The position numbers and the translations under genes are program-made. Shown piece after piece: positions 12,930 through 63,683 of a DNA stretch of 64,000 bases; position 1 is the first letter of the stretch; each line of letters opens with the position of its first letter. Under the pieces are notes generated by a model. That model ran no database searches. It saw only the letters and a program-made list of their open reading frames with translations, and was not told where the DNA came from. The DNA comes from a virus: the IMG/VR virus record IMGVR_UViG_3300032331_000527, positions 1-64,000 of that record. One strand, 5' to 3'.

Positions 12930-15245
12930 TCACGCAGCGATCGTCTGAATGAAACGACCTAATACCGCACGAGAAGCTCCACGCTTGTTTTGGGCGGAGA
13001 TAAACGCCCTAGTAAGCTGTCCCTTTTTCATGTCCGAAACTGCATCGAATTTAGCCTGTTGGGCTAAGAGTGAACGTCCGCCCTGAATGAGATAAAACTC
13101 ATCGAAGTTGAGCATACCCTTGACGACGCAGCCTTTTTCCTTCTTCCACTGATTCATCAAGCCATCATGGTCCTTGTTGCAGTAACGATAGCCAATGTGG
13201 CGAACATCGTAAGGACCCCCGACGATATAGAAGCCAACGAACGTGGCGTTCTGAGAAGAACGAACGGTACGAGCATACATACCCGTAATTTCGTGCTGCT
13301 CTTGGAAGTTGATTCTCGTCTGAACACGAGACTCCTCGTCCACGAAAATGCGAGTCGTTTTATCAGTTCTGTGCTGATAGTGAGGCAGAGACGTATGATA
13401 ATGCGTTCCGCGATCGTACGGACGATACGACCAATACGAAGGACAGTTGCTCTCGCCGTCTGTGATGCATACGAAATTCATAATCTGAACGTTCTTTTCC
13501 TTGCGGAACTTCTTCATCAGATCACGAGAAACGAGCAGCGCACAGTTCAATGGTGTACCACCGAGAGAGAAGTATCTCATATCTTTGCCGTATCCGAATC
13601 CATTCTGAACAAGACTCGACGCATTGCTATACCCATTCTTGGTAGCAAATTCATCATCGCCACGCATATTATATTTCTGCGCAGCCAAGAGAAGAGCACC
13701 AGTCATGGTATTGAAGTCCTTGAGAGACATTTTCTCATGGAACATTTCGATGAGACTGAAATCATCCTCAGGGAAAACATAGTCCTTGTTACCGATACGA
13801 CGCTGGATAGCAAGACGCATATCCTTGCGCTTCTGCATCGACAGATGATAGTCCTTATCAGCTTCAGCCATCACGCTCGTGAAGCCATAGACACGATGAG
13901 GAATACCGACACGACGACAGAACATAGTCAAGCAAACAAGCTGGTCAATCGCACCACGAATGCTCGAAGACATAGAACCAGACATGTCCAGAACGACTAC
14001 GAGTCCATGATTCTTGCCAGTAGGCTCAATCGTAAGTCTACGGAAAATGTCGTCGTTGAACTTATAAGAATGAATCTTATTGGTATCAATGACGCCAGTC
14101 TTAGCCTGCTTGCTTCGCGCATACGAAACAGCAGCCTTCTTCATCTCGAACTCCTTCACCATATAGTTAATGGCGTTGTTGTTCTCCGAACGGAACGCAG
14201 TCAGAAGCCTTTGACGATATTCCATCAGCACAGAACGATTGGAAGCACGAGCGAAATCGTGCTCAATCATCTTAATGATAGCCTGATAATCGTATGTGAA
14301 CGGCTCGTATGTAATATCCTTCGGAAAGGAGATATAGCGAAAGTCACGGCCAGTCAGCGACTGATCGAGAAGTTCTTCCATACGATCGTTCATGGCACGA
14401 TCAGTCGTAGCCTCTTCTACTCCATCGAGCGGATCGGACTTACCACCTTTGGTGCCAGGAGAGTTGGCTTCAGAATCGGAATCCTCTTCTTCGCCATCTT
14501 CCTCGGTATCTTCGCTGTCGTCCGACTCATCGCCGTCACCGTAGTCCTCGTCATCAAAGTCGTCGGACTCTTGACCTTCGCCGTCTTCGTCTTCGTCATC
14601 AGCAAGGCTAGTAGATACGTCGCGATTGTCCTCATCTTCTTTCTTGATCTTGGCCCAAGCAAGAAGATCTTCAGACAGCTTAACAACGTCGTCGAACGTG
14701 ATAGTCTGTTCAGCACGGCGGACGAACACACGCTCTTCTTCCGAGAATTTGATACGGATACGAGTACCAAGCTTGAAGTAGAGATTGATACGGTCGATGA
14801 GAGACAGATTATCAACTTCGCGATTAGCCAGCTCAAAGAAATCTTTATCGTGGAGATAGTTGTATCCGTCGATGAAATCCTTGCGCGAGCCAGGAAACTT
14901 GGTCTTGATCTTGCGCTCGATGCGAGCGTCTTCGACCACATTCATGTAGCCTTGGAACGTTTGACCGACACGCTTAGATTCGTGTTCTTTGGTGGCGTTG
15001 TCAATCGCGCCTTTCCAAGCATCGGCTGGAGTTTCCAGCGCATGACCAACTTCGTGGAGCACGAGCATATGATAGAGCGCCTCGCTCATTTCATCCCACA
15101 TAGGCAAGCCAAGGACACGATTCTTCACGTCGAAATAAGCTGTGCGAATGGGTTTATGCTCAACGGTGATGTTCTCGGCCGCAAGCAGCTTGGCGAGCTT
15201 ATCGAGCTCTCCGCCCGGACGGACCATTTTTGTAGATTCAGCCAT
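12930..15245 (-). CDS. cobT: CobT-like protein: HExxH metallopeptidase-like domain plus VWA domain
   Basis: 771 residues from the ATG at 15245, chosen because AAGGAG precedes it and because the longer in-frame ATG (15263) coincides with the predicted transcription start. An N-terminal domain contains LHEVGHAL (residues 64-68 HEVGH) and, about 40 residues later, NVVEDARIE, a zinc-metallopeptidase-like arrangement. A very acidic low-complexity linker follows (about 225-275). The C-terminal VWA domain has a MIDAS, DMSGSMSS, with GGTPL and ITDGES further on. CobT proteins have this acidic linker and VWA; the HExxH suggests a protease or metal-binding role. It pairs with the CobS-type ATPase. No CobN or other cobalamin gene is present. 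Confidence 0.85.
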   Translation of the reverse strand: MAESTKMVRPGGELDKLAKLLAAENITVEHKPIRTAYFDVKNRVLGLPMWDEMSEALYHMLVLHEVGHALETPADAWKGAIDNATKEHESKRVGQTFQGYMNVVEDARIERKIKTKFPGSRKDFIDGYNYLHDKDFFELANREVDNLSLIDRINLYFKLGTRIRIKFSEEERVFVRRAEQTITFDDVVKLSEDLLAWAKIKKEDEDNRDVSTSLADDEDEDGEGQESDDFDDEDYGDGDESDDSEDTEEDGEEEDSDSEANSPGTKGGKSDPLDGVEEATTDRAMNDRMEELLDQSLTGRDFRYISFPKDITYEPFTYDYQAIIKMIEHDFARASNRSVLMEYRQRLLTAFRSENNNAINYMVKEFEMKKAAVSYARSKQAKTGVIDTNKIHSYKFNDDIFRRLTIEPTGKNHGLVVVLDMSGSMSSSIRGAIDQLVCLTMFCRRVGIPHRVYGFTSVMAEADKDYHLSMQKRKDMRLAIQRRIGNKDYVFPEDDFSLIEMFHEKMSLKDFNTMTGALLLAAQKYNMRGDDEFATKNGYSNASSLVQNGFGYGKDMRYFSLGGTPLNCALLVSRDLMKKFRKEKNVQIMNFVCITDGESNCPSYWSYRPYDRGTHYHTSLPHYQHRTDKTTRIFVDEESRVQTRINFQEQHEITGMYARTVRSSQNATFVGFYIVGGPYDVRHIGYRYCNKDHDGLMNQWKKEKGCVVKGMLNFDEFYLIQGGRSLLAQQAKFDAVSDMKKGQLTRAFISAQNKRGASRAVLGRFIQTIAA

Positions 15246-15269
15246 TGCCTTCTCCTTCATCATTTACTA

Positions 15270-15298
15270 ATGATAGCTGGTTGGCGCTCAGTTGTCAA
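15270..15298 (-). promoter_or_regulatory. Sigma-70-like promoter for the cobT-like gene
   Basis: TTGACA (15293-15298), 17-base spacer, TATCAT (15270-15275) on the minus strand. The TGA of the upstream gene is part of the -35. Confidence 0.72.
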
Positions 15299-15459
15299 GA
15301 CGGATCTTTCGCCATGTTAGTATATAGGAGCAAACACAATACGCCAACGGCAACATAGGCGTTCGTGCCTATTCCGATGAACGTGATACCAGCGATAAGG
15401 CAGAGAAGTTGGAAAAACATCGCGCCAATGATCTTGACGACTTCAGTCTTATCATCCAT
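15295..15459 (-). CDS. Small two-helix membrane protein
   Basis: 54 residues: a short charged start (MDDKTEVVK), then two hydrophobic segments (about 10-30 and 34-47) and a polar tail. GAGGAG lies five bases before the ATG. It probably sits in the inner membrane with both ends in the cytoplasm. It starts a run of very short genes between cobT and the methyltransferase. Function unknown; small early membrane proteins in T4-like phages often affect host physiology or superinfection. Confidence 0.68.
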   Translation of the reverse strand: MDDKTEVVKIIGAMFFQLLCLIAGITFIGIGTNAYVAVGVLCLLLYTNMAKDPS

Positions 15460-52319: not shown

Positions 52320-53060
52320 TTATCCAATCATGTCCGTAACAGGCAAGCTGTAATCGTTAATAACAGTATCTTCGAGTCTTTGTATTTCTTCCTGTGCTTC
52401 GTCCCATATCTTTTGTCCATTAAACGTAATGCCGCCTGGAAGATTCATGCCTTCGTATAGCTTTAGATGCTCGCCCCACTGGCGCTTAACCAGCTGTGTG
52501 GCATACTGTTTAAGCCAAGGCTCTTCCCAGACATCTGGATATTCTTCTGGATTGACTTCGCGATAACCTTCGATCATAATGAATTGACCTACTTGAGTGT
52601 CGTCGTCCCACGACATATCAATTTGCAACTTATTCATATTACGATTGAAGCGGATAGGTTTCTTTCCGACGAACACTTCTTCAAGGAATTCGATATGGCG
52701 CATCGCAACAACATAAGGCGCAATAGATACGCTAGAAACATTGAACAGTTCGTTTAGATGAAGCTGATAACGAATATTGAACATATTCATAGCACCATAC
52801 GAATCGTTGATATCAAAAACGCGAGTCACTCCTACGAAATCATTCGGAAGAGTGATATAACGATTATTGATATTTGTTTGCGTTAGTTGATGTGGATAAT
52901 ACACATGCTCCATACCGTCAAAGTGATAATCGCGATACTTGAGCAAAGCATCGTCAATACGATCATCAATCTGCTCATCGTCGACGTTGATGTCAATGAC
53001 TGGAGAGCCTAAACGGCGTAAGATATATTCTTTGAACTGTTGACGACTTGTAATAGCCAT
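52320..53060 (-). CDS. 13: Neck protein gp13
   Basis: 246 residues (T4: 309). RQQFKEYILRRLGSPVIDINVDDEQIDDRIDDALLKYRDYHFDG (seen in pieces) is the hallmark N-terminus of gp13; DFVGVTRVFDI and the middle LPNDF segment also match. The RBS is unusual: GGAG sits inside the loop of a hairpin (53062-53090) directly before the ATG. It completes heads with gp14. Confidence 0.94.
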   Translation of the reverse strand: MAITSRQQFKEYILRRLGSPVIDINVDDEQIDDRIDDALLKYRDYHFDGMEHVYYPHQLTQTNINNRYITLPNDFVGVTRVFDINDSYGAMNMFNIRYQLHLNELFNVSSVSIAPYVVAMRHIEFLEEVFVGKKPIRFNRNMNKLQIDMSWDDDTQVGQFIMIEGYREVNPEEYPDVWEEPWLKQYATQLVKRQWGEHLKLYEGMNLPGGITFNGQKIWDEAQEEIQRLEDTVINDYSLPVTDMIG

Positions 53061-53061
53061 A

Positions 53062-53090
53062 AGGGGAGCTCTCCAATGAGTAACTCCCCT
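53062..53090 (-). promoter_or_regulatory. Hairpin enclosing the gp13 ribosome-binding site
   Basis: AGGGGAG/CTCCCCT (53084-53090 and 53062-53068) forms a 7-bp stem whose loop holds TTGGAG. The stem ends two bases before the gp13 ATG and is not followed by a T run. It could regulate gp13 translation. A late-promoter variant (AATAAATA, 53090-53097) overlaps it. Confidence 0.5.
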
Positions 53091-53096
53091 ATTTAT

Positions 53097-55154
53097 TCAT
53101 TTTGAATTCGTTCTGAATACGCCATCCCAATCTTTGGGTAACGGATTGGCTTTATACTCTTCGATGCGCTCAACCATCATATGATAATACTCTGTCATTT
53201 CACCTTCAAATGCTTTCTCAATGTAAGGAATATATTCGAGAGCTTTTTCCCAATACTGTTCGCGATAGAGTTGTAGAAAATCCGCATGCGAGCGAGAGAA
53301 AGCGATATTGAGTCCGTTCTTTTCAACGATGGTATAGATCTTAACCCCTTCGTTTTTGCCTTTAACCGCAAGGCAATCAAGCTCTAGGCATAGATACTCG
53401 TCCTTCACATATTCATAAGTCTTTGGACCTATGACCATCTTAACGTGATATGGCTTGCTCTGACCTTCTAGTCGAGAGGCCAGATTAACGGTATCACCAA
53501 GACAAGTGTAATCAAAACGTTGGTCACTACCCATATTGCCAACCACAACGGAGCCTGTGTTAATCCCAAGACCCATACCAAAGGGTGGAATACCCTCAGC
53601 GGTGACTTCTTTGTTAAATCGTTCCAGATCATCTAGCATCTCCAATGCTGTTTTAACTGCGTGTCTGGCGTGCATCTCATCATCAAGTGGTGCATTCCAA
53701 AACGCCATTTGAGCATCACCGATATACTTATCTAGTGTGCCATCGTTGTCAATGATCTTCTTGGTCATCGCTGTCATGTAGCGATTCATTATCTTAGTAA
53801 GGCCCTGAACGTCGGAGCCATAATGCTCAGAAATAGTAGTGAAACCACGAACGTCAGTAAACATAATCGATAGTTCACGAGTCTCTCCTCCTAGACGTAA
53901 TAGCTCAGGATTCTTCTGAAGTTTTTCAACAAGAGCTGGTGAAAGATAAGTTCCGAATTGCTTTTTGATTTGCTGCTTTAGTCTAAACTCGCGAGCGAAA
54001 TTGTTGAATACCAAATGCCCGAATACAGCAGATAGAGCCAATATAATATAGCTAGGATCCCAAAGTTGAAGTTCTGTTTTAAATAAGTAATATGACGTAA
54101 ACCCTATGCCAGAAACAAGGAAGGCATAAAATGGTACTGTCAGACTTACGCTCAGTTTTGGAACTATATGGAGCAATAGTAGTAGCATGGTGGTTAGTAG
54201 TGCTCCTTCTATTAGCCTTCCTACGTTTGGGCGAGAAATAGAAGTGCCATCGACCAGTGTTTGGAGTGTCTGCGCTTGGATCTCATGGGCCCACTTCTCA
54301 CCGATTGGTGTTGCTATGATACCACCAACACCTTCAATCGTTAGACCAAGAATAACAATCTTGTCCTTCACGCGAGCATCTATCTCGGTTGCTTCTAGCG
54401 TATCAAATTTGGTGTTCCAAGATAACCAGATGCGCCCGCGCTCGTCGGTTGAGATTGGTGGAAAAGCTGGGACTCTTACAGCTTCTATTCCACCTTCGTT
54501 CGTCTTAACTTGGAAGCTAGGGTCTCCAGCAGCGACACGAATGGTCTCCAAAGGTATGCTAGGATAAAGACCAGATGCAATATTGACCAATAGAGGCATA
54601 CGGCGAACCACACCGTCCAATTCAGAGATTGTTGCGACCACACCAACGCCTGAGGCAACTTCGGCATACTTGTCAAGAGGGCGTAATCCACCAGGCCAAC
54701 GATAGACAACCCTAGCAGGATCAACAGGACCGATACTAGCGAACCCACGACGGACCGAATCAGGTTTAGAATTTTGTGTAGTAGGTGTTTGTGCGAGGAT
54801 AACACCATCAAGAGTTTTTGCCAGTTCATCATCGCCACCTGCTCTGTCTTTCTCTGAGAATAGTATTGGTGCAACGATTACCGAAGCACCGTTTTCTTTT
54901 AGTTTGTTGATTGTCTTTGCGATATCTCTGCGGTCGAATGGCCACTGACCAAACTTCTCGACCGACTTCTCACCAAAATTGACAACGACAATTTCCTCTG
55001 ACTGTTTCTTATCAAGCGAAGTGATAAGATAATCAAAGGTCTTTAGCTGGAGCGTTTGAATCGCGCTTGGGTTGATTGCATACAATGTCAACAGGAGACA
55101 GGCGCTGATAGCAACCATCCATGTGCTTGTAAGAAACTTGGTCAGCTTTTCCAT
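53097..55154 (-). CDS. CHASE2-domain class III nucleotide cyclase (probable adenylate cyclase)
   Basis: 685 residues. A membrane segment (about 11-27) is followed by an extracytoplasmic CHASE2 sensor domain (about 33-300), three membrane segments (about 312-387) and a C-terminal cyclase domain (about 420-612). The cyclase has both metal-binding aspartates (FTDVRGFT, D434; KYIGDAQMAFW, D480), K476, FDYTCLGD (D548, T550), and VNLASRLEG with N557 and R561, so it appears active. The DKYIGD lysine and FDYT aspartate favour ATP over GTP, but substrate is inference. It would sense the periplasm and make cyclic nucleotide in the cytoplasm. It is the last gene of the curli cluster. Confidence 0.93.
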   Translation of the reverse strand: MEKLTKFLTSTWMVAISACLLLTLYAINPSAIQTLQLKTFDYLITSLDKKQSEEIVVVNFGEKSVEKFGQWPFDRRDIAKTINKLKENGASVIVAPILFSEKDRAGGDDELAKTLDGVILAQTPTTQNSKPDSVRRGFASIGPVDPARVVYRWPGGLRPLDKYAEVASGVGVVATISELDGVVRRMPLLVNIASGLYPSIPLETIRVAAGDPSFQVKTNEGGIEAVRVPAFPPISTDERGRIWLSWNTKFDTLEATEIDARVKDKIVILGLTIEGVGGIIATPIGEKWAHEIQAQTLQTLVDGTSISRPNVGRLIEGALLTTMLLLLLHIVPKLSVSLTVPFYAFLVSGIGFTSYYLFKTELQLWDPSYIILALSAVFGHLVFNNFAREFRLKQQIKKQFGTYLSPALVEKLQKNPELLRLGGETRELSIMFTDVRGFTTISEHYGSDVQGLTKIMNRYMTAMTKKIIDNDGTLDKYIGDAQMAFWNAPLDDEMHARHAVKTALEMLDDLERFNKEVTAEGIPPFGMGLGINTGSVVVGNMGSDQRFDYTCLGDTVNLASRLEGQSKPYHVKMVIGPKTYEYVKDEYLCLELDCLAVKGKNEGVKIYTIVEKNGLNIAFSRSHADFLQLYREQYWEKALEYIPYIEKAFEGEMTEYYHMMVERIEEYKANPLPKDWDGVFRTNSK

Positions 55155-55417
55155 CAGTATTGACTAACGATATAAGGGCTATTGGGACAAGTGAAACCAC
55201 AAGTAACACTAAGACTAAAAGACTGAGGCGTGTTTCCAGACTGAGAGATAATAGCCGAGATATTATCGCCAGTAAAATTAAGGGTAGCACTATGATTAGC
55301 ACCAGACTGAGTAATACTAACATTCTGTAAGGATCCTATGATGTTCACGGTTGCATTATTTACTGTCTGCGATAGCGCAGGCATTGTCATTAGAAGGAGC
55401 GCGATTAAAGTTTTCAT
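55154..55417 (-). CDS. Secreted curlin-repeat protein, small (CsgB/CsgA-like)
   Basis: 87 residues with an N-terminal signal peptide (MKTLIALLLMTMPALSQ). The mature part has curlin-like repeats: VNIIGSLQNVSITQSGANHS, then ATLNFTGDNISAIISQSGNT, matching the S/N-x5-[QN]-x-G-x4-N-x5-[QN] ladder of CsgA/CsgB. The end has two cysteines (CGFTCPN), unusual for curlins. It probably exits through CsgG and could nucleate or cap amyloid fibres. The start overlaps the cyclase start by one base. Confidence 0.75.
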   Translation of the reverse strand: MKTLIALLLMTMPALSQTVNNATVNIIGSLQNVSITQSGANHSATLNFTGDNISAIISQSGNTPQSFSLSVTCGFTCPNSPYIVSQY

Positions 55418-55418
55418 G

Positions 55419-56528
55419 TCAGTTACCCTGCTTTATAGTTATCGTTGTGGTCCCAGCGCTGTTTACCATCTGTGTCACTGAACCACCATCTTGAGTCAAA
55501 TTCAACGTCATGTTATGCGTAGTTGATACAGTCAATTCCATATATGCGTTGTACGTTTCACGATAGAGCGTCACGTTATCTTGCTCAACAAAATACTTCA
55601 AACCTGTTGCAGCATTATATTTAGGCAGCAAAGCGTTGAACTCTGCAAGCTCATTACCTAACATCTGCGAATTTGATAGATCTAAAAAGTTCAGTAGAAA
55701 ATCACTATCAAGGAAATTGCGATCTAGTTTGTCATACTCGTTGAGATAGTTTTTGTCAAGCTCGCCATACTTTAGAAAATCAACGCCAAGTAAGTCTGCA
55801 TCTAATACGTTCGCGGCACGTTCTACTGTTTGTTCGCGCATGACAGGTTTCGCTGGTGCTACGATAAGCATATTGTTTATCTGATCTAGATTCAAATTCA
55901 TAATGTTGGACTTGAGTGTGCTAGTACTCGCTTGCACGTTTACTGTTTCAAATGCTCTAGTTAGCCAAATAACACCTGCATCTGTAGTAACAGATATGGA
56001 ACCAACCACGCAGTCTCGTTCAATATTACGCCAGCCAGCAGGACAAGAAGGAAGAAGGACAATAGTAGAGCGCCCAATTTCATCGACGGTACCTGAGAAA
56101 TCAGTTCCGCGGACACCGATTGTTGCTGTTGGTGTTTCCACCATGACTTGTTGCGGATCTGATTTAGCAATTTGCCCGGATGCATATTTGATAGTGCCGA
56201 GCGCCATCTTGATGCCAAGCTTGCCAGTTTTCTTTTCACCATCGTAAACAAAATTGTCAATGACAAGGCGGCTGTGCTCCGTTATCTGGACTTTAGTTTC
56301 GTCTCGGAACGTGATTCCCGCTTTACTGTTTGCGGTCGTTATTGTGTCCTTCATCTCAACGCCACTTTGCAGTGCGCTAGGAATCACGTTCGTTTCACGT
56401 TTTATTTCAGCTGGTCCTGACTGCTCAGTGACTTTTCCGACTTCCGCTTCAGTTGTGGTTGGACTTAACAGTAAGAGTATTGCCAGTACCAGTGATTGTA
56501 GAAATGACCTTAGAGTCAACAGCGCCAC
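55419..56528 (-). CDS. Secreted FecR-domain protein with curlin-like C-terminus
   Basis: 369 residues. A signal peptide (LTLRSFLQSLVLAILLLLSP region) precedes a FecR domain about 30-200: SALQSGVEMKDTITTANSKAGITFRD, then TLGIKMALGTIKYASG, then VETPTATIGVRGTDFSG, which is the FecR core. Helical, D/L-rich sequence follows (about 235-310). The last 45 residues (MTLNLTQDGGSVTQMVNSAG, then TTTITIKQGN) look like one or two curlin repeats. FecR domains often relay or gate signals in the periplasm. The gene overlaps the upstream curlin gene by 80 bases. Confidence 0.86.
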   Translation of the reverse strand: MALLTLRSFLQSLVLAILLLLSPTTTEAEVGKVTEQSGPAEIKRETNVIPSALQSGVEMKDTITTANSKAGITFRDETKVQITEHSRLVIDNFVYDGEKKTGKLGIKMALGTIKYASGQIAKSDPQQVMVETPTATIGVRGTDFSGTVDEIGRSTIVLLPSCPAGWRNIERDCVVGSISVTTDAGVIWLTRAFETVNVQASTSTLKSNIMNLNLDQINNMLIVAPAKPVMREQTVERAANVLDADLLGVDFLKYGELDKNYLNEYDKLDRNFLDSDFLLNFLDLSNSQMLGNELAEFNALLPKYNAATGLKYFVEQDNVTLYRETYNAYMELTVSTTHNMTLNLTQDGGSVTQMVNSAGTTTITIKQGN

Positions 56529-57126
56529 CTTGCTTTATATCTACAGTGTTTGTTGCACCTAAGATATTCACATCGGCTTCATGACCATTCGTAGATGCTA
56601 CGCCTGTTTGAATGATGTTGACATTATTGCCTCCACCACCGTCAATAAGAACCGTACTCTTCGCACCCGCGACTGCGCTGGAATCATTCTCTATGTTTAC
56701 GGTGTTGTTGTCTGTGTTAATTGTAACAGTTGATAATGTAAGCCCTTCAGCTTTTTGTGTCACTGTGTTTCCGTCACCCGTAACTGTGTTGTTGATAATG
56801 GATCCTGTACAGCTTCCGCTCACGCCGCAAGCAATTTCAATCGTATTGCTGTCGCCTGTGACTAACGAATTTACCTGTACAGCATCACCCTGAACATTAA
56901 TGCTCATCAGGTTGCTATTACCAATCTGATCAATCGTGACAATGTTATTTTGTCCGTTGAATATTGCTTTGTCGGTGACATTACCAATCGCATTCGAATT
57001 GCCAGTTTGAGTCAATGAAATTGTAGATCCGCCACCTATTTGGTCTACATACACACTATTGCTCGCGGCGTTTGCATATTGAAGCATAACCAAGAATGAC
57101 AAAAATGCCAGTCTTGTACGTTTCAT
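56449..57126 (-). CDS. Secreted curlin-repeat protein (CsgA-like)
   Basis: 225 residues with signal peptide MKRTRLAFLSFLVMLQYANA. The mature protein has repeated curlin ladders such as VYVDQIGGGSTISLTQTGNS, then NIVTIDQIGNSNLMSINVQG and NVNIIQTG, VDIKQGG, with alternating N and Q. It also has one disulphide-capable pair (ACGVSGSC) in the middle. It is the likely major fibre subunit and substrate of the CsgG pore encoded next to it. The repeats are less regular than in E. coli CsgA. Confidence 0.86.
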   Translation of the reverse strand: MKRTRLAFLSFLVMLQYANAASNSVYVDQIGGGSTISLTQTGNSNAIGNVTDKAIFNGQNNIVTIDQIGNSNLMSINVQGDAVQVNSLVTGDSNTIEIACGVSGSCTGSIINNTVTGDGNTVTQKAEGLTLSTVTINTDNNTVNIENDSSAVAGAKSTVLIDGGGGNNVNIIQTGVASTNGHEADVNILGATNTVDIKQGGAVDSKVISTITGTGNTLTVKSNHN

Positions 57127-57130
57127 TTTG

Positions 57131-57934
57131 TTACCTCTTTTTGATACTCCAGAGCTTCTTCTTAGCTCCCTCCTTTATCATATCTGCTACTGCTGCTTCA
57201 ATTGCTATTCTAACTGCATACGTCGTAGGTTCATTAACAGCAGTTCCTGCTTCGAATTCCAAAGATTTCGTACCTACATCAAGAAATTTAAAAACGTTCG
57301 CGCCAGCACTTGTACTAAGAACTGTCTTGGATGATCCTGTTGAAAGTAAAATCTCACCTGTGTTTATGGATATCAAACGGATAACAACAGTGACTTCATC
57401 TTTACGATATTCTTGAGTAGCTCCGATTCCTAAGAATCTTGCGCCTATACCACCTGTTCCTACGTTAGTATCATAACCAACAACACCGCCATCTAACATA
57501 ATGCCAGCAACAGTAAGTGGTGTCAATGGCTTCGCTTGATCCTTTTCATAAAGCTCGCGCTGACTACGAATCAGCTGACGTTCTTTTACTAGATTATCAA
57601 GTGAAGCACGTTCTACAACTTGAAACCACTTACCTTTACCCGCATCCTGTAGTGCCTTGATTAGAAAAACTTCAGAGCCCTGCGTCACAGCAGAACTTAG
57701 ACTAGCAAAACCACTAGCTGGTTTACGTTGTCCTGTTAGATCAGGGAAACGATACACAGCGATTGGAATAAGAGGTCCGTCTACACCTTTCAGATTGGCT
57801 AATTCATTGAAACGCTTAGTCGTAATAACTTCGGGTGCTTCAACAGTAACTTCCATCGTTTCTTTAGTCACTTGAGTAGGCATACAACCAACTAACAATA
57901 GACTAGCAAGAACTATGCCAAAAATCTTTACCAT
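57131..57934 (-). CDS. csgG: Curli secretion pore CsgG
   Basis: 267 residues, lipoprotein signal peptide with lipobox LLLVGC (Cys17). Characteristic CsgG sequence: VYRFPDLTGQRK, SSAVTQGSEVFLIKALQDAG, WFQVVERASLDNLVKERQLIR, then ILDGGVVGYDTNVGTGG, RYFGIG-like GARFLGIGATQEYRKDEVTVVIRLIS and INTGEILLS. The family forms a nonameric outer-membrane channel through which unfolded curlin subunits pass. It overlaps csgF by 7 bases. It is complete, with no missing motif. Confidence 0.97.
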   Translation of the reverse strand: MVKIFGIVLASLLLVGCMPTQVTKETMEVTVEAPEVITTKRFNELANLKGVDGPLIPIAVYRFPDLTGQRKPASGFASLSSAVTQGSEVFLIKALQDAGKGKWFQVVERASLDNLVKERQLIRSQRELYEKDQAKPLTPLTVAGIMLDGGVVGYDTNVGTGGIGARFLGIGATQEYRKDEVTVVIRLISINTGEILLSTGSSKTVLSTSAGANVFKFLDVGTKSLEFEAGTAVNEPTTYAVRIAIEAAVADMIKEGAKKKLWSIKKR

Positions 57935-58377
57935 GCTAAACTCCCATATGGGACAACGACTTCTGTCACGCTGCCACCAGCATCCGTAATTCTTAGAGTA
58001 ATCTGTGATCCATCAGATGACCACTGAACGTTATTCGAAGCGATATCAAATGTACCTGAGGTATTTCCGTTATCAGTAAACAACTGCTCGGCTATTTTCT
58101 GCGAGAGCGTCGCGTACACGCGAGACTCCAAATTGTTCAAGAATTTTGCCAGATTAGTATTTTTCGCGGCGGACGCAGCTGCAGCTGCTTCAGCTTTTTT
58201 ATCTTCAGCCATCTTTTGTCTACGAGAAGCTTCTAGATTGTCGATTGTTAGAACGTGAGCTGAAAAACCTATACCACTGAAAGAAGGACTCTTAAACTGA
58301 AACTGTAAATCGTTTGCTAGAGTACTACTGCTTAGGATTAGGAGGAAGCTCAGTGCTGTGATCGTGCATCTGTTCAT
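57928..58377 (-). CDS. csgF: Curli assembly factor CsgF
   Basis: 149 residues with signal peptide ending SSSTLA. The mature N-terminus DLQFQFKSPSFSGIGF matches the conserved CsgF head (FQFRNPNFGG) that plugs into CsgG. An A/K-rich linker, then NLAKFLNNLESRVYATLSQKIAEQ and a beta-rich end (FDIASNNVQWSSDGSQITLRITD) follow. CsgF anchors the curlin nucleator at the cell surface. Translation starts 53 bases before the stop codon of the small membrane-protein gene upstream. Confidence 0.93.
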   Translation of the reverse strand: MNRCTITALSFLLILSSSTLANDLQFQFKSPSFSGIGFSAHVLTIDNLEASRRQKMAEDKKAEAAAAASAAKNTNLAKFLNNLESRVYATLSQKIAEQLFTDNGNTSGTFDIASNNVQWSSDGSQITLRITDAGGSVTEVVVPYGSLAW

Positions 58378-58636
58378 ATTTCTGTTCCTCGATTTGTTGT
58401 CCTCGTAGCGTAAGCACTACGTTGACTTTCTGATTTAATCGAATAAGGTCATTATCTAGCATTCGAATACGATCAATCAAAGCAATCAGAACTGTATTAG
58501 CTTCGGAGAGTATGGGTTTGATTTCTTGAGTAGCCCACTTCCAAACATAAAAGATAAGGTATCCCATACCGCCAGCAGCGACGATGGGAAATCCATACTT
58601 ATTAATCATTTCTACTATGTCACCAGGCCCGGCCAT
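58325..58636 (-). CDS. Small one-helix membrane protein with coiled coil
   Basis: 103 residues. One hydrophobic helix (about 13-33, GFPIVAAGGMGYLIFYVWKWA) is followed by a coiled coil (about 40-75, with ALIDRIRMLDNDLIRLNQKVNVVL) and a polar tail. Similar in plan to its upstream neighbour and to BhlA/UviB-type holin-like proteins. It might be a holin-like protein or an inner-membrane partner of the curli system. It overlaps csgF at its 3' end. Confidence 0.66.
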   Translation of the reverse strand: MAGPGDIVEMINKYGFPIVAAGGMGYLIFYVWKWATQEIKPILSEANTVLIALIDRIRMLDNDLIRLNQKVNVVLTLRGQQIEEQKYEQMHDHSTELPPNPKQ

Positions 58637-58920
58637 TAGTCTCTCCTTGCGTCGTTTTTACCGTCAGCTCTTGCGATACGATCTGTGTCTGGCTTTATGC
58701 CGAGTGCGTTCGATACCAAAGTATCGATGCGAATAACGTCATGGTTCATAGTCTTAACTCGATTGTCGAGCGCCGTGATAATTCCGCTCATTCCTTTAAC
58801 GCTACCCATCACACCGGCCAGAATAAATTTGAGCGTCAGGAACACGAAATATCCACCCGCGATTGACGAAGCAATAGGAAACCCCACTTCAGCCACGAGC
58901 TTGAAAAATTCTGCATTCAT
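58636..58920 (-). CDS. Small one-helix membrane protein, paralogue of the previous
   Basis: 94 residues. VGFPIASSIAGGYFVFLTLKFIL is the membrane helix (about 11-33), followed by ALDNRVKTMNHDVIRIDTLV, parallel to its neighbour (the D-x-x-R-x-x-x-x-D-H/N-D-[LV]-I-R pattern is shared), so the two are probably a duplication. It is the first gene after a late-promoter-like AATAAATA and would head the curli operon. Function unknown; holin-like is a guess. Confidence 0.66.
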   Translation of the reverse strand: MNAEFFKLVAEVGFPIASSIAGGYFVFLTLKFILAGVMGSVKGMSGIITALDNRVKTMNHDVIRIDTLVSNALGIKPDTDRIARADGKNDARRD

Positions 58921-58942: not shown

Positions 58943-58950
58943 TATTTATT
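58943..58950 (-). promoter_or_regulatory. Late-promoter variant (AATAAATA) heading the curli cluster
   Basis: The minus strand reads AATAAATA in the divergent gap between the plus-strand oxygenase gene and the membrane-protein/curli genes, 23 bases before the start at 58920. Confidence 0.45.
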
Positions 58951-60671: not shown

Positions 60672-61607
60672 CTAGTTCGATGCCTTTGGATTATATACCC
60701 TATTTATAAAGGCTAACTCGTTCTTGATAGTAGCCTCTGTTTCTTTGGGATCCATGCAATATGAAAGATATGGTGCTCTAAGCTCCGCCACTTTCTTAAA
60801 GTCTGGATGCGCGCACGCGAGCTTCATGTCGGCTTCAAACGTCTTAACGAATCCAGCTCGCTCTTTAGGTACAGCAAAGAGTAGGATTGTCTGAAGATTA
60901 AACTCAGGGAATCCGATTTCTTTACCTGTAGGAGCATCTGGGAAAGTCTTCATACGCTCGTCAGAAGAAACAAGAAGCGCCTTAAGACCAATCATATCTG
61001 GCATTGTGAATACCGTATAGTCGACTTCCTTATTCTGAACTGCTAGAACGATATCTGGAACAGACTTGTACTTGATCTCATCGACTCTACCTTCAATCCC
61101 ATATTTTTTCATAAACAAATCGTTCATCATTCTAGCTGCTGGGCCAATAAGAGTCGAGCCGACATATGATTTTGGCTTGCTCTTAATAGAAGCAACAAGA
61201 TCGTCGATATTCTTAATCGGAGAATCTAGAGCAACTAGAACACCAAGCGTGTTCTTACCAATACCTGTACTGATGATAAAGTCATTATCACGATCAAATC
61301 CTGGCTTTGGGTTCTCTATCCTATTAACTGTAAGGGTCGAAATTCCTGTATAGAATACAACATCTTGATTTTGTTTAGCTAGAACAGTTGCTCTTAACGC
61401 AGCAACGTCACCAGCAGCGCCCATTGAAAATGCGAACTTGTATTCTCTTTCTTTTTGAACTGTGTTCAGAATCTGTGTAATACCAACTCCGATTAGTCCA
61501 CCACTACCAATAACTGGTAATGCGCTGACGAGTTCCACTTGCTTTTGCGCTAGTGCTGGAGACGCCAACATAGCGGCGAGTAAAGCAATTTTAATACCAC
61601 GAAACAT
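60672..61607 (-). CDS. Periplasmic binding protein, TctC/Bug family
   Basis: 311 residues with signal peptide MFRGIKIALLAAMLASPALA. The mature sequence follows the tripartite tricarboxylate transporter receptor pattern: P-x-G-x-G-G-x-x-[RG]-x-G (ALPVIGSGGLIGVG), then ISTLTVNR, NTLGVLVALDSPIKNIDDLVASIK, YVGSTLIGPAARMMNDLF and VDYTVFTMPD. Bug-type proteins bind carboxylates in the periplasm. No TctA/TctB membrane genes are seen. A phage-encoded solute binding protein is unusual; it may feed a host transporter. Confidence 0.85.
   Translation of the reverse strand: MFRGIKIALLAAMLASPALAQKQVELVSALPVIGSGGLIGVGITQILNTVQKEREYKFAFSMGAAGDVAALRATVLAKQNQDVVFYTGISTLTVNRIENPKPGFDRDNDFIISTGIGKNTLGVLVALDSPIKNIDDLVASIKSKPKSYVGSTLIGPAARMMNDLFMKKYGIEGRVDEIKYKSVPDIVLAVQNKEVDYTVFTMPDMIGLKALLVSSDERMKTFPDAPTGKEIGFPEFNLQTILLFAVPKERAGFVKTFEADMKLACAHPDFKKVAELRAPYLSYCMDPKETEATIKNELAFINRVYNPKASN
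60701..60708 (-). promoter_or_regulatory. T4-type late promoter (TATAAATA)
   Basis: Exact TATAAATA on the minus strand inside the last codons of the TctC-like gene, 40 bases before the gene starting at 60661. Confidence 0.7.
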
Positions 61608-62841
61608 TTAATTCTCCTATTGTGTAAGGTTCTGTAAAGATGTGTTTTCCAAGCAACTCTTTCTCTGCAACTTTGGCGTATTTCTTTAAGTAGAATTTGT
61701 TGTACTCTTCTAAAGCTTCGGCTGCTGCATTATCTTTCTGAATCAGTGAGACTAATTCATATTCCGGTGATCTAGTTCCTGGCTTGGGAGCAACAAACAT
61801 ATTACTGTTCCAATAGTAATAGATCAACTCATCGTATCTACGATAGATATTTCCAACAAGACTAGGTGAGACGTCAGCCTTATTGAAAACAATCGCTCGT
61901 TCTTGACTGTACATAAATGCAGCATAGAAATCTCTATCGGATTCCAACTTACGCTTGATCACATGAGATTGTTTGATTGGGATGAGGGGACAATCTGGCG
62001 TCCAGAAAAAGTTTTCGATAGTATAGATATCGTCTACGTCTTTTTTCTGGATCATCTTCACGGAGTGCATTGATGCATCGCTGAAACGGAATTGAAGATG
62101 ATTGTCTAATATATTTAGCGATGGTTTCTCGACTCCTCTGATAAAAGCTGCGTTATTTTTTCTTACAGCATGTTTATTATTGTGATGCTGTTGGAAGAAG
62201 CTTCTCGTATATGGCGTCTTTATTGTTACGAACGATGGATTACTGACGAACTTATCCATACCCAAACTCGAGAATTTATTGCTGACGATATCGCCAACAG
62301 CGAAATCTGATGCGTCTAACAGCGTGATCTTAGTGTTTGGACTTCTATCAGCTATGATCTTCAGCTGTGGTTTAACCATAATATCGAATTCTAAAAGTGT
62401 CTTGATAGAAGCGTCTTTCATCAACTCGTTTTTGTCGAATCTGTTAAGAGCTTTGCTGTAGTGAACTGTCTGTATCTCGTCAATGAAAATGTTGTTATCT
62501 AAGAATGTGTAGAGAATCTCGTGTGAGTCTGCTCCTCCAGAATAGCTAAGAATGAGATAGTCATACTTGTCACGCAATTGTTGACAACGTTCGACATAGA
62601 GCTGCTTGAGAGTTTGCTCTGGTTCTTTTGACCAGTCACGTGTCTTGAACACTGGCTCGTTGAAACAATAGTAAATAGTTTCACGACCAGCGCCTCGACT
62701 GATCCTAATATCAGCAGGGATATTATGAATCTTCTCGCGCAGATTTACGCCAGCAACCATCTCATCGAGCAGATCCTCTCGACTGATATAGATCTTGTTA
62801 CCATGAAGATAGAAACCGCAATGCAGTTGAGGATATATCAT
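61591..62841 (-). CDS. PP-loop ATPase (asparagine-synthase/N-type ATP pyrophosphatase-like)
   Basis: 416 residues. A SGGADS PP-loop (LSYSGGADSHEILYTF, about 97-112) follows an N-terminal extension of about 95 residues and a strand YDYLIL. The C-terminal half is helical and unlike known members. The PP-loop superfamily activates substrates by adenylation (asparagine synthase, GMP synthase, QueC, tRNA-sulphur enzymes). No QueC zinc cysteines are visible. Paralogue of the gene at 62838. It overlaps the TctC-like gene by 17 bases. Confidence 0.75.
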   Translation of the reverse strand: MIYPQLHCGFYLHGNKIYISREDLLDEMVAGVNLREKIHNIPADIRISRGAGRETIYYCFNEPVFKTRDWSKEPEQTLKQLYVERCQQLRDKYDYLILSYSGGADSHEILYTFLDNNIFIDEIQTVHYSKALNRFDKNELMKDASIKTLLEFDIMVKPQLKIIADRSPNTKITLLDASDFAVGDIVSNKFSSLGMDKFVSNPSFVTIKTPYTRSFFQQHHNNKHAVRKNNAAFIRGVEKPSLNILDNHLQFRFSDASMHSVKMIQKKDVDDIYTIENFFWTPDCPLIPIKQSHVIKRKLESDRDFYAAFMYSQERAIVFNKADVSPSLVGNIYRRYDELIYYYWNSNMFVAPKPGTRSPEYELVSLIQKDNAAAEALEEYNKFYLKKYAKVAEKELLGKHIFTEPYTIGELNVSWY

Positions 62842-63683
62842 TTAATTTTCCATAGATCTAAGAACTCTATTAGATCTGCTCTTTTGCCAAAACTATAACC
62901 AGGTTTCGCCGTTTTCATACCGGAACTCATACTGATCTTTCGAGCTAGCTCACGGAACTCTTTATCGAACTCATATCCCAATATAGGACGATATTCTATC
63001 CCGTACAACTTACACTTCCACATGTCCACAGGTTCTTTGTCATCGTAGATAGCGTCTATCATAGCATAGGCTATCTCTAGTGTGTACATGAAAAATGGAA
63101 TTGTGTACTGTTCGCCTACGAAACACTCGTTATAACTATCCCACTCGTTCATCATTGGACGAAGCCTAACTTCTCCGTCTTCGTCGGGCTTTTCACCTTC
63201 AATCATATGTTCGCCAATAATCAATACGCCATCATTGTCTCTTGCGTATCTACAGGCGTGGATAGAAGGGATTGAAAAAATACCATATCCAAGTATCTTC
63301 TTTATCACTTCCTCATAGTATATACTGAGATACTCGCTATTGTCAAGATTTAATACGATGGGCTCGATATTAAGTTTCTTACACAGCTCAAAGGCGTATC
63401 TAAGTTCTTTTTCGTTACCCGAAGTCTTTACGATAATCACTTCAAAGGGAATATTGTTACGATGGAAACATTGGGTAACGAAAATAGAATCTGCGCCTCC
63501 GCTAAGAGCGACGTAAATCTTCTTGTTTTTTTCGTAGATTTTTTTGGCTGTGTAATCCGCGGCGTCTTGAAAGCTCATCTCTCGAAATGGATATGGGCGC
63601 AAACGAACATAGTACGCCATTCCTTTGACGAGCAATCGTTCGTAGATGTTGGTATCTACCCAGTCATTTTCGGTTGCCATCAA
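62838..63683 (-). CDS. PP-loop ATPase, second copy
   Basis: 281 residues. The PP-loop is ALSGGADSIFVTQCF (about 58-72), after an N-terminal helix region and KKIYVALSGGADS strand. Then LNIEPIVLNLDNSEYLSIYYEEVI and GVLIIGEHMIEGEKPDEDG form the probable substrate pocket. Related to asparagine-synthase C-terminal or other adenylating domains. The two PP-loop genes are joined by a 4-base overlap and probably work together. Confidence 0.72.
   Translation of the reverse strand: MMATENDWVDTNIYERLLVKGMAYYVRLRPYPFREMSFQDAADYTAKKIYEKNKKIYVALSGGADSIFVTQCFHRNNIPFEVIIVKTSGNEKELRYAFELCKKLNIEPIVLNLDNSEYLSIYYEEVIKKILGYGIFSIPSIHACRYARDNDGVLIIGEHMIEGEKPDEDGEVRLRPMMNEWDSYNECFVGEQYTIPFFMYTLEIAYAMIDAIYDDKEPVDMWKCKLYGIEYRPILGYEFDKEFRELARKISMSSGMKTAKPGYSFGKRADLIEFLDLWKIK
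63317..63346 (-). promoter_or_regulatory. Possible sigma-70-like promoter inside the PP-loop gene
   Basis: TTGACA (63341-63346), 18-base spacer, TATACT (63317-63322) on the minus strand. It could express the second PP-loop gene and the TctC-like gene downstream. Confidence 0.45.

Follow-up and report, generated by a model that had tools for sequence, protein, structure and literature searches.

The 64,000-nucleotide (nt) stretch analysed here, which we call the window (positions 1 to 64,000 of IMG/VR virus record IMGVR_UViG_3300032331_000527), carries on its minus strand a curli module of a T4-like phage. A pair of small membrane-protein genes, here named TM1 and TM2, is followed by csgF, csgG, a first curlin gene, the gene of a FecR-domain protein, a second curlin gene and the gene of a CHASE2 nucleotide cyclase. 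We cautiously favour the reading that this putative late operon (58950-53097) supplies the infected cell with a complete secretion system of type VIII, the curli type, and that amyloid fibres are displayed late in infection. The module is a further case of a phage curli set that has already been published, not a new system.

Gene content and conservation of the module

Six open reading frames (ORFs) occupy 58377-53097 of the minus strand (Table 1), and all of them exceed the curated Pfam cut-offs of their families, the two curlins barely so (the Curlin_rpt cut-off is 20.7 bits). An earlier note on this DNA, made from the letters alone, had described these six genes as a cluster for curli-like secretion that includes a sensory cyclase; the gene set and the family assignments stand, since profile searches do place the proteins in the CsgG and CsgF families. 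It had also described neighbouring genes as overlapping or separated by 1 to 4 bases, which is correct for most junctions but misses one: fecR begins with a GTG inside the curlin 1 gene, giving an overlap of 80 nt, the commonest overlap length among the relatives. Moreover, it ended the module two genes too early, leaving out TM1 and TM2 upstream.

Viral relatives were gathered by two CsgG scans of IMG/VR and re-annotated with profiles built in this analysis; the resulting set contains no podophage loci. Within genome bins of unrelated phyla, 12 nominally bacterial loci (L054-L060, L064, L066, L073, L083 and L087) carry the phage module, most of them together with TM1/TM2. We treated them as misbinned phage contigs, a judgement and not a proof, and they are included in the counts of viral loci. 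The order csgF-csgG-curlin-fecR-(curlin)-cyclase is repeated in more than 80 viral loci. In 69 viral loci the sequence extends 7.5 kb or more beyond csgG; of these, csgF is present in 67, a curlin in 69, fecR in 69 and the cyclase in 68; among 53 bacterial curli loci with the same downstream length, fecR and the cyclase are found in one. Median ratios of nonsynonymous to synonymous substitution rates (dN/dS) between near relatives are 0.05-0.14 per gene, curlin 2 being the exception (0.23). Judged by these ratios, purifying selection acts on every gene of the module, the curlins among them. Since the fibre genes are held by selection just as the pore is, a module reduced to a pore is disfavoured.

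The earlier note had named a chimeric join to host sequence as the outcome that would overturn it. Such an assembly chimera is ruled out by the recurring junctions (the cyclase and gp13 lie within 250 nt of each other in 11 of the 15 loci carrying both genes, the window counted), by the recurring gene order and by the position of the module inside a virus record of 139,058 bp, which contains one CsgG and one CHASE2.

Promoter-like motifs and expected timing

The T4-type late-promoter motif [TA]ATAAATA occurs 10 times in the window, each time on the minus strand, which bears most genes. This number is within chance, but the placement of the motifs is not. When scored within 90 nt upstream of gene starts (background, 0.9% of random 90-mers), the motif precedes TM1 in 36 of 89 loci of the relatives, csgF in 45 of 118 and gp13, the next unit downstream, in 13 of 15, and it is absent before the inner genes TM2 (0/91), csgG (0/120) and fecR (0/108). 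Furthermore, a separate motif precedes csgF in 13 of 59 loci with the TM pair directly upstream versus 18 of 29 with the pair on the opposite strand (Fisher p=3e-4, indicative only because the compared loci are related). This pattern probably reflects a late operon headed by the TM pair.

Late-type promoters would place the fibres alongside virion assembly and lysis, and therefore the likeliest benefit is one at or after lysis. The T4 exclusion genes imm and sp act early, whereas the promoters here are of late type, and this weakens an early form of the superinfection block that the earlier note had entertained. A surface covered by fibres, or otherwise changed, might still keep out competing phages, and PMC9599517 argues that curli biofilms can limit phage penetration; given the timing, we consider this explanation rather unlikely.

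The small membrane proteins TM1 and TM2

In both TM1 and TM2 a single hydrophobic segment lies close to the N-terminus, and the rest of the protein is coiled-coil-like. TM1 is strongly constrained (dN/dS 0.048), and among 50,697 phage records it was found only in HTVC008M and Melnitz strains, all of which are curli carriers. A scan of IMG/VR for TM1 produced 78 new loci, 72 of them with module genes nearby; the other six are short contigs (6-11 kb) or have TM1/TM2 close to a contig end. CsgG was present in 22 of 22 whole records tested from TM1 loci, and the 53 bacterial curli loci all lack the pair. In some phages the pair lies on the opposite strand, beyond the cyclase. This association establishes TM1/TM2 as near-constant companions of the phage system, and the pair belongs to the phage curli module.

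The similarity of the two proteins to holins is weak. Six of the 14 members of their alignment weakly match the holin family phrog_4898 (best 1.1e-4; E=0.004 for TM2 of the window), the BhlA holin model PF10960 gave no match, and one of the 14 members matched the YvrJ model at E=0.11. These values bear on the proposal that CsgG/CsgF have taken on a new role, as a pinholin or secretin timing lysis, with the fibre genes secondary. An obligate small membrane-protein pair with weak similarity to holins and preceded by late-type promoters would fit such a role. However, TM1 is not found in T4-like phages lacking curli, which speaks against a general lysis gene, and a pore formed by CsgG, an outer-membrane protein, would leave the proton-motive force intact. 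The proposal was made for Melnitz on the basis of synteny (PMC9004378), together with the claim that csgA/csgB are absent; that claim fails, as Melnitz does have curlin genes, and curlins under purifying selection are present in all 69 of the viral loci that extend far enough downstream. Altogether, we regard control of lysis by the pore as quite unlikely.

The available text of PMC9599517 places a 'histidine kinase', sometimes two, in front of CsgF and names no TM1/TM2 family there. Kinase domains were not matched in any of the 14 TM1/TM2 members (the window proteins are 94 and 103 amino acids, aa, long), and these genes are possibly the ones so labelled.

Secretion and fibre components

CsgG can be aligned over its full length with the solved CsgG (family profile against PDB 3x2r/6l7a, E=1.8e-96), and its lipobox Cys17 is invariant in the family alignment. 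In CsgF the signal peptide is followed by the FxFxxPxFxG peptide, of which F28, P31, F33 and G35 are conserved or nearly so. The curlins have a conserved ladder of Q, G and N residues, and the AlphaFold2 model of curlin 1 is a ladder of beta-strands, a predicted beta-solenoid (predicted local distance difference test 88.9, predicted template modelling score 0.83). A Cys pair is present in 111 of 119 phage curlin 1 proteins, 97 of 108 FecR proteins and 36 of 36 curlin 2 proteins; among bacterial curlin ORFs it is found in 27 of 200.

According to the alignment and a predicted model, the FecR protein begins with a signal-peptide-like helix. The FecR domain comes next, then a linker rich in leucine and aspartate, and at the C-terminus a beta domain whose last residues are ITIKQGN (ITIxQ). 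Foldseek relates the model to the periplasmic domains of PupR and of a Parabacteroides anti-sigma protein (probability 1.0). A cytoplasmic anti-sigma domain is missing, as nothing but the signal-peptide-like helix, about 26 residues long, precedes the FecR region; for this protein, 'iron-dependent regulator' is therefore an unsupported label.

Table 1. Features of the curli module and its borders in the window
Feature	Position	Strand	Description
Late-promoter-like motif AATAAATA	58943..58950	-	T4-type; 22 nt upstream of TM1, first module gene
TM1	58636..58920	-	94 aa; one N-terminal membrane helix, coiled-coil-like stretch, C-terminal DGKxDARRD; phrog_18771
TM2	58325..58636	-	103 aa; TM1 paralogue, GFPI-type membrane segment; 3' end overlaps csgF; phrog_18771
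CsgF	57928..58377	-	149 aa; signal peptide, then FQFKSPSFSG (constriction-peptide motif); PF10614 67 bits
CsgG	57131..57934	-	267 aa; lipoprotein, LLLVGC lipobox, outer-membrane channel; PF03783 172 bits
Curlin 1	56449..57126	-	225 aa; signal peptide and curlin repeats, Cys pair; PF07012 (Curlin_rpt) 21.1 bits
FecR-domain protein, exported	55419..56528	-	369 aa; PF04773 44 bits
Curlin 2 (small)	55154..55417	-	87 aa; Cys pair; PF07012 22.7 bits; CsgB model NF007506 E=3.7e-4
CHASE2 and class III nucleotide cyclase	53097..55154	-	685 aa; PF05226 137 bits, PF00211 (Guanylate_cyc) 79 bits
Late-promoter-like motif AATAAATA	53090..53097	-	Precedes gp13 unit; motif start to gp13 ATG 37 nt; downstream limit of module
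gp13	52320-53060	-	Next unit downstream of cyclase

The cyclase and its proposed pairing with the FecR protein

The cyclase of the window has a CHASE2 sensor, membrane helices and a cyclase domain, the latter matching adenylate cyclases of the PDB with a best E of 8.3e-34. It retains D434, K476, D480, T550, N557 and R561, the six catalytic residues of class III cyclases; they comprise two metal Asp, the adenine Lys and Thr/Asp, and the transition-state Asn and Arg. D434, K476, D480 and R561 are invariant in all 78 phage cyclases. The transition-state Asn (N557) is replaced by Ser in 23 of the 78, Melnitz among them. These 23 cyclases (L051, L039, L046 and 20 others) always have Asp at the adenine position as well, a VSTAAR variant.

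Bacterial surface programmes are under cyclic AMP control, and with its full set of catalytic residues the enzyme of this phage could be imagined to reprogram host metabolism or biofilm genes, the fibre genes being its output or accessory. Yet the cyclase is the last gene of a putative late operon, which leaves scant time for reprogramming, and the transition-state residue is altered in nearly a third of the phage enzymes (the 23 mentioned above); a cyclic-nucleotide switch thus seems to us very unlikely as the main purpose of the module.

As the earlier note had stated, FecR and CHASE2 do occur together in some bacteria: a FecR-domain gene adjoins the CHASE2-cyclase gene in five of the 29 best bacterial cyclase loci. 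In Burkholderia, the genes of a FecR-domain protein and of a CHASE2 kinase share an operon that has been tied to biofilm formation (PMC5192318). On the strength of both pairings, we read the phage FecR and CHASE2 proteins as a sensor pair.

The phage and the surrounding sequence

The phage is T4-like, of the marine Kyanoviridae type, its gp17 terminase being 53-56% identical to those of Synechococcus, Prochlorococcus and Pelagibacter phages and of Melnitz. The rest of the genome carries 16 transfer RNA genes and a transfer-messenger RNA of alphaproteobacterial type (L358, 18911-19314, that is about 102.9-103.3 kb of the genome; tag ANDNALIETRLAA; L360 is listed with it); Rfam gave no match in the window. 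Three further regions of the window may be mentioned. A TctC-type substrate-binding receptor of tripartite tricarboxylate transporters (60672-61607; PF03401 51 bits, signal peptide) is a possible clue to the host. Two adjoining proteins at 61591-63683 have the PP-loop-like motifs SYSGGADS and ALSGGADS, and at 12930-15320 long frames lie on opposite strands over one stretch (777 aa on the minus and 717 aa on the plus strand).

Proposed mechanism and the evidence against it

Based on these observations, it can be envisaged that curlin subunits exported by Sec leave by way of a CsgG channel that CsgF caps, and form beta-solenoid amyloid fibres at the cell surface. The periplasmic FecR protein, with the curlin-like last strand of its beta domain, might signal the state of the envelope or of curlin export, and CHASE2 might convert this signal into a cyclic nucleotide. 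TM1/TM2 would be inner-membrane partners added by the phage. The benefit would arise at or after lysis, when sibling cells, debris and virions might be kept close to one another, as in the 'sibling capture' proposed in PMC7029224. We also consider a more far-reaching version, in which TM1/TM2 are an obligate, new and phage-specific type VIII component, the exported FecR protein and the CHASE2 cyclase monitor the system, and the TM pair rather than the pore couples fibre export to the late stage; this version is possible but, in our opinion, doubtful. As for the roles suggested in the earlier note, fibres are the favoured one (conserved curlins, beta-solenoid model, purifying selection), and an aid to lysis consisting of the pore only is disfavoured.

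Several points weigh against a complete fibre-forming system. The curlin Pfam scores scarcely exceed the cut-off, the curlin model had no match in the PDB at E<=0.001, and a predicted fold is no demonstration of amyloid formation. The late-promoter assignment is a consensus match, not a matter of transcripts, and the Ser variant implies that cyclase activity may vary by lineage. Neither cytograms nor electron micrographs of Melnitz revealed clumping (PMC9004378). Finally, CsgE (PF10627) had no match at E<=1 in the 139-kb record, the E. coli control being positive. Thus, among the hallmarks of curli or type VIII secretion, CsgG, CsgF and a subunit with curlin repeats are recognizable, CsgE is not, and fibre formation is predicted. 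In E. coli, CsgE raises curli output almost 20-fold yet is not essential (PMC7029224), and in alphaproteobacterial modules it is not present, according to PMC9599517. Because CsgE is dispensable for curli, we did not count its absence as a defining loss.

The absence of a CsgE gate from the genome is also what makes it conceivable that an ungated CsgG pore takes up large nutrients or cofactors during infection, as is suggested in both PMC7029224 and PMC9599517. Uptake, however, explains neither the fixed order in which CsgF, two curlins, FecR and the cyclase accompany the pore nor the late timing, and we find it barely credible. Several published guesses about the role of phage curli compete. 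The late-promoter map, the conserved curlins and the obligate membrane pair make direct tests possible in existing phage-host cultures.

A bacterial counterpart in Hyphomonas

A 705-kb contig of Hyphomonas sp. TMED17 (L061) carries csgF, csgG, the gene of a 504-aa curlin, fecR and a CHASE2 cyclase gene in one run, with ordinary bacterial genes on either side. This operon contradicts the published statement that bacterial curli operons lack such genes. The combination of FecR, cyclase and curli is consequently not restricted to phages, and Hyphomonas offers a bacterial setting for studying the same circuit. The earlier note had proposed a CsgG tree as a means of finding the donor. The tree does unite TMED17 and the phages in one group (Shimodaira-Hasegawa-like approximate likelihood-ratio test 99), but a phage-only clade excluding TMED17 was not rejected (approximately unbiased test, p=0.15), so that TMED17 may lie either inside or beside the phages and may represent either the donor type or a later recipient. 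With query alignments that include the TMED17 sequence itself, profile searches found no further cyclase or CsgF of the TMED17 type in 105 genomes of its family and no further FecR match of full length among 385 genomes of its class.

Comparison with known systems

The earlier note knew of no T4-like phage with the whole set. In fact, both HTVC008M and Melnitz carry it, and phage curli genes have been published. CsgF/CsgG were described in pelagiphages, with 'sibling capture' as the proposed function (PMC7029224, 2020). For Melnitz, csgG/csgF alone were reported and the module was considered incomplete, with a lysis pore as its proposed product (PMC9004378, 2022). Podo- and myophages with CsgF, CsgG, CsgA/B, FecR, cyclase and 'histidine kinase', an alphaproteobacterial origin of the set and phage-coded curli at all 65 ocean stations examined are reported in PMC9599517 (2022). 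As to the annotations, that of HTVC008M, an isolated Pelagibacter phage, lists csgF, csgG, a curlin-associated gene, two unnamed genes and the cyclase, FecR and the second curlin having been placed by our sequence comparison; that of Melnitz, a Methylophilales phage, gives all genes in this order, with FecR and the second curlin among them. A Salmonella phage record (OR851715) was rejected as a further curli phage, as it is an unverified 1.5-kb contig and probably host DNA.

With the E. coli csgBAC-csgDEFG system the window has CsgG, CsgF and curlin repeats in common; it differs in lacking CsgE (in the 139-kb record) and in the addition of FecR, the CHASE2 cyclase and the TM pair. The E. coli pore-constriction residues, Y51, N55 and F56 in that numbering, are not kept in the CsgG loop of the window, and the same is true of many bacterial CsgG proteins. 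TMED17 shares the order csgF-csgG-curlin-fecR-CHASE2 cyclase and differs by its single 504-aa curlin, by having no TM1/TM2 and by its location on a bacterial chromosome. In Melnitz the gene order is that of the window and two small genes likewise lie upstream; its CsgG is 45% identical to that of the window, and its cyclase has Ser at the transition-state position where that of the window has Asn. The pelagiphage module (HTVC008M, pelagimyophages and HTVC023P-type podophages; PMC7029224, PMC9599517) has the same arrangement as the window, CsgF-CsgG-curlin-FecR-second curlin-cyclase. In HTVC008M, CsgG is 50% identical to that of the window, the guanine-plus-cytosine content is 33.5% in the region examined versus 43% in the window, and the second curlin is 441 aa long compared with the 87 aa found here.

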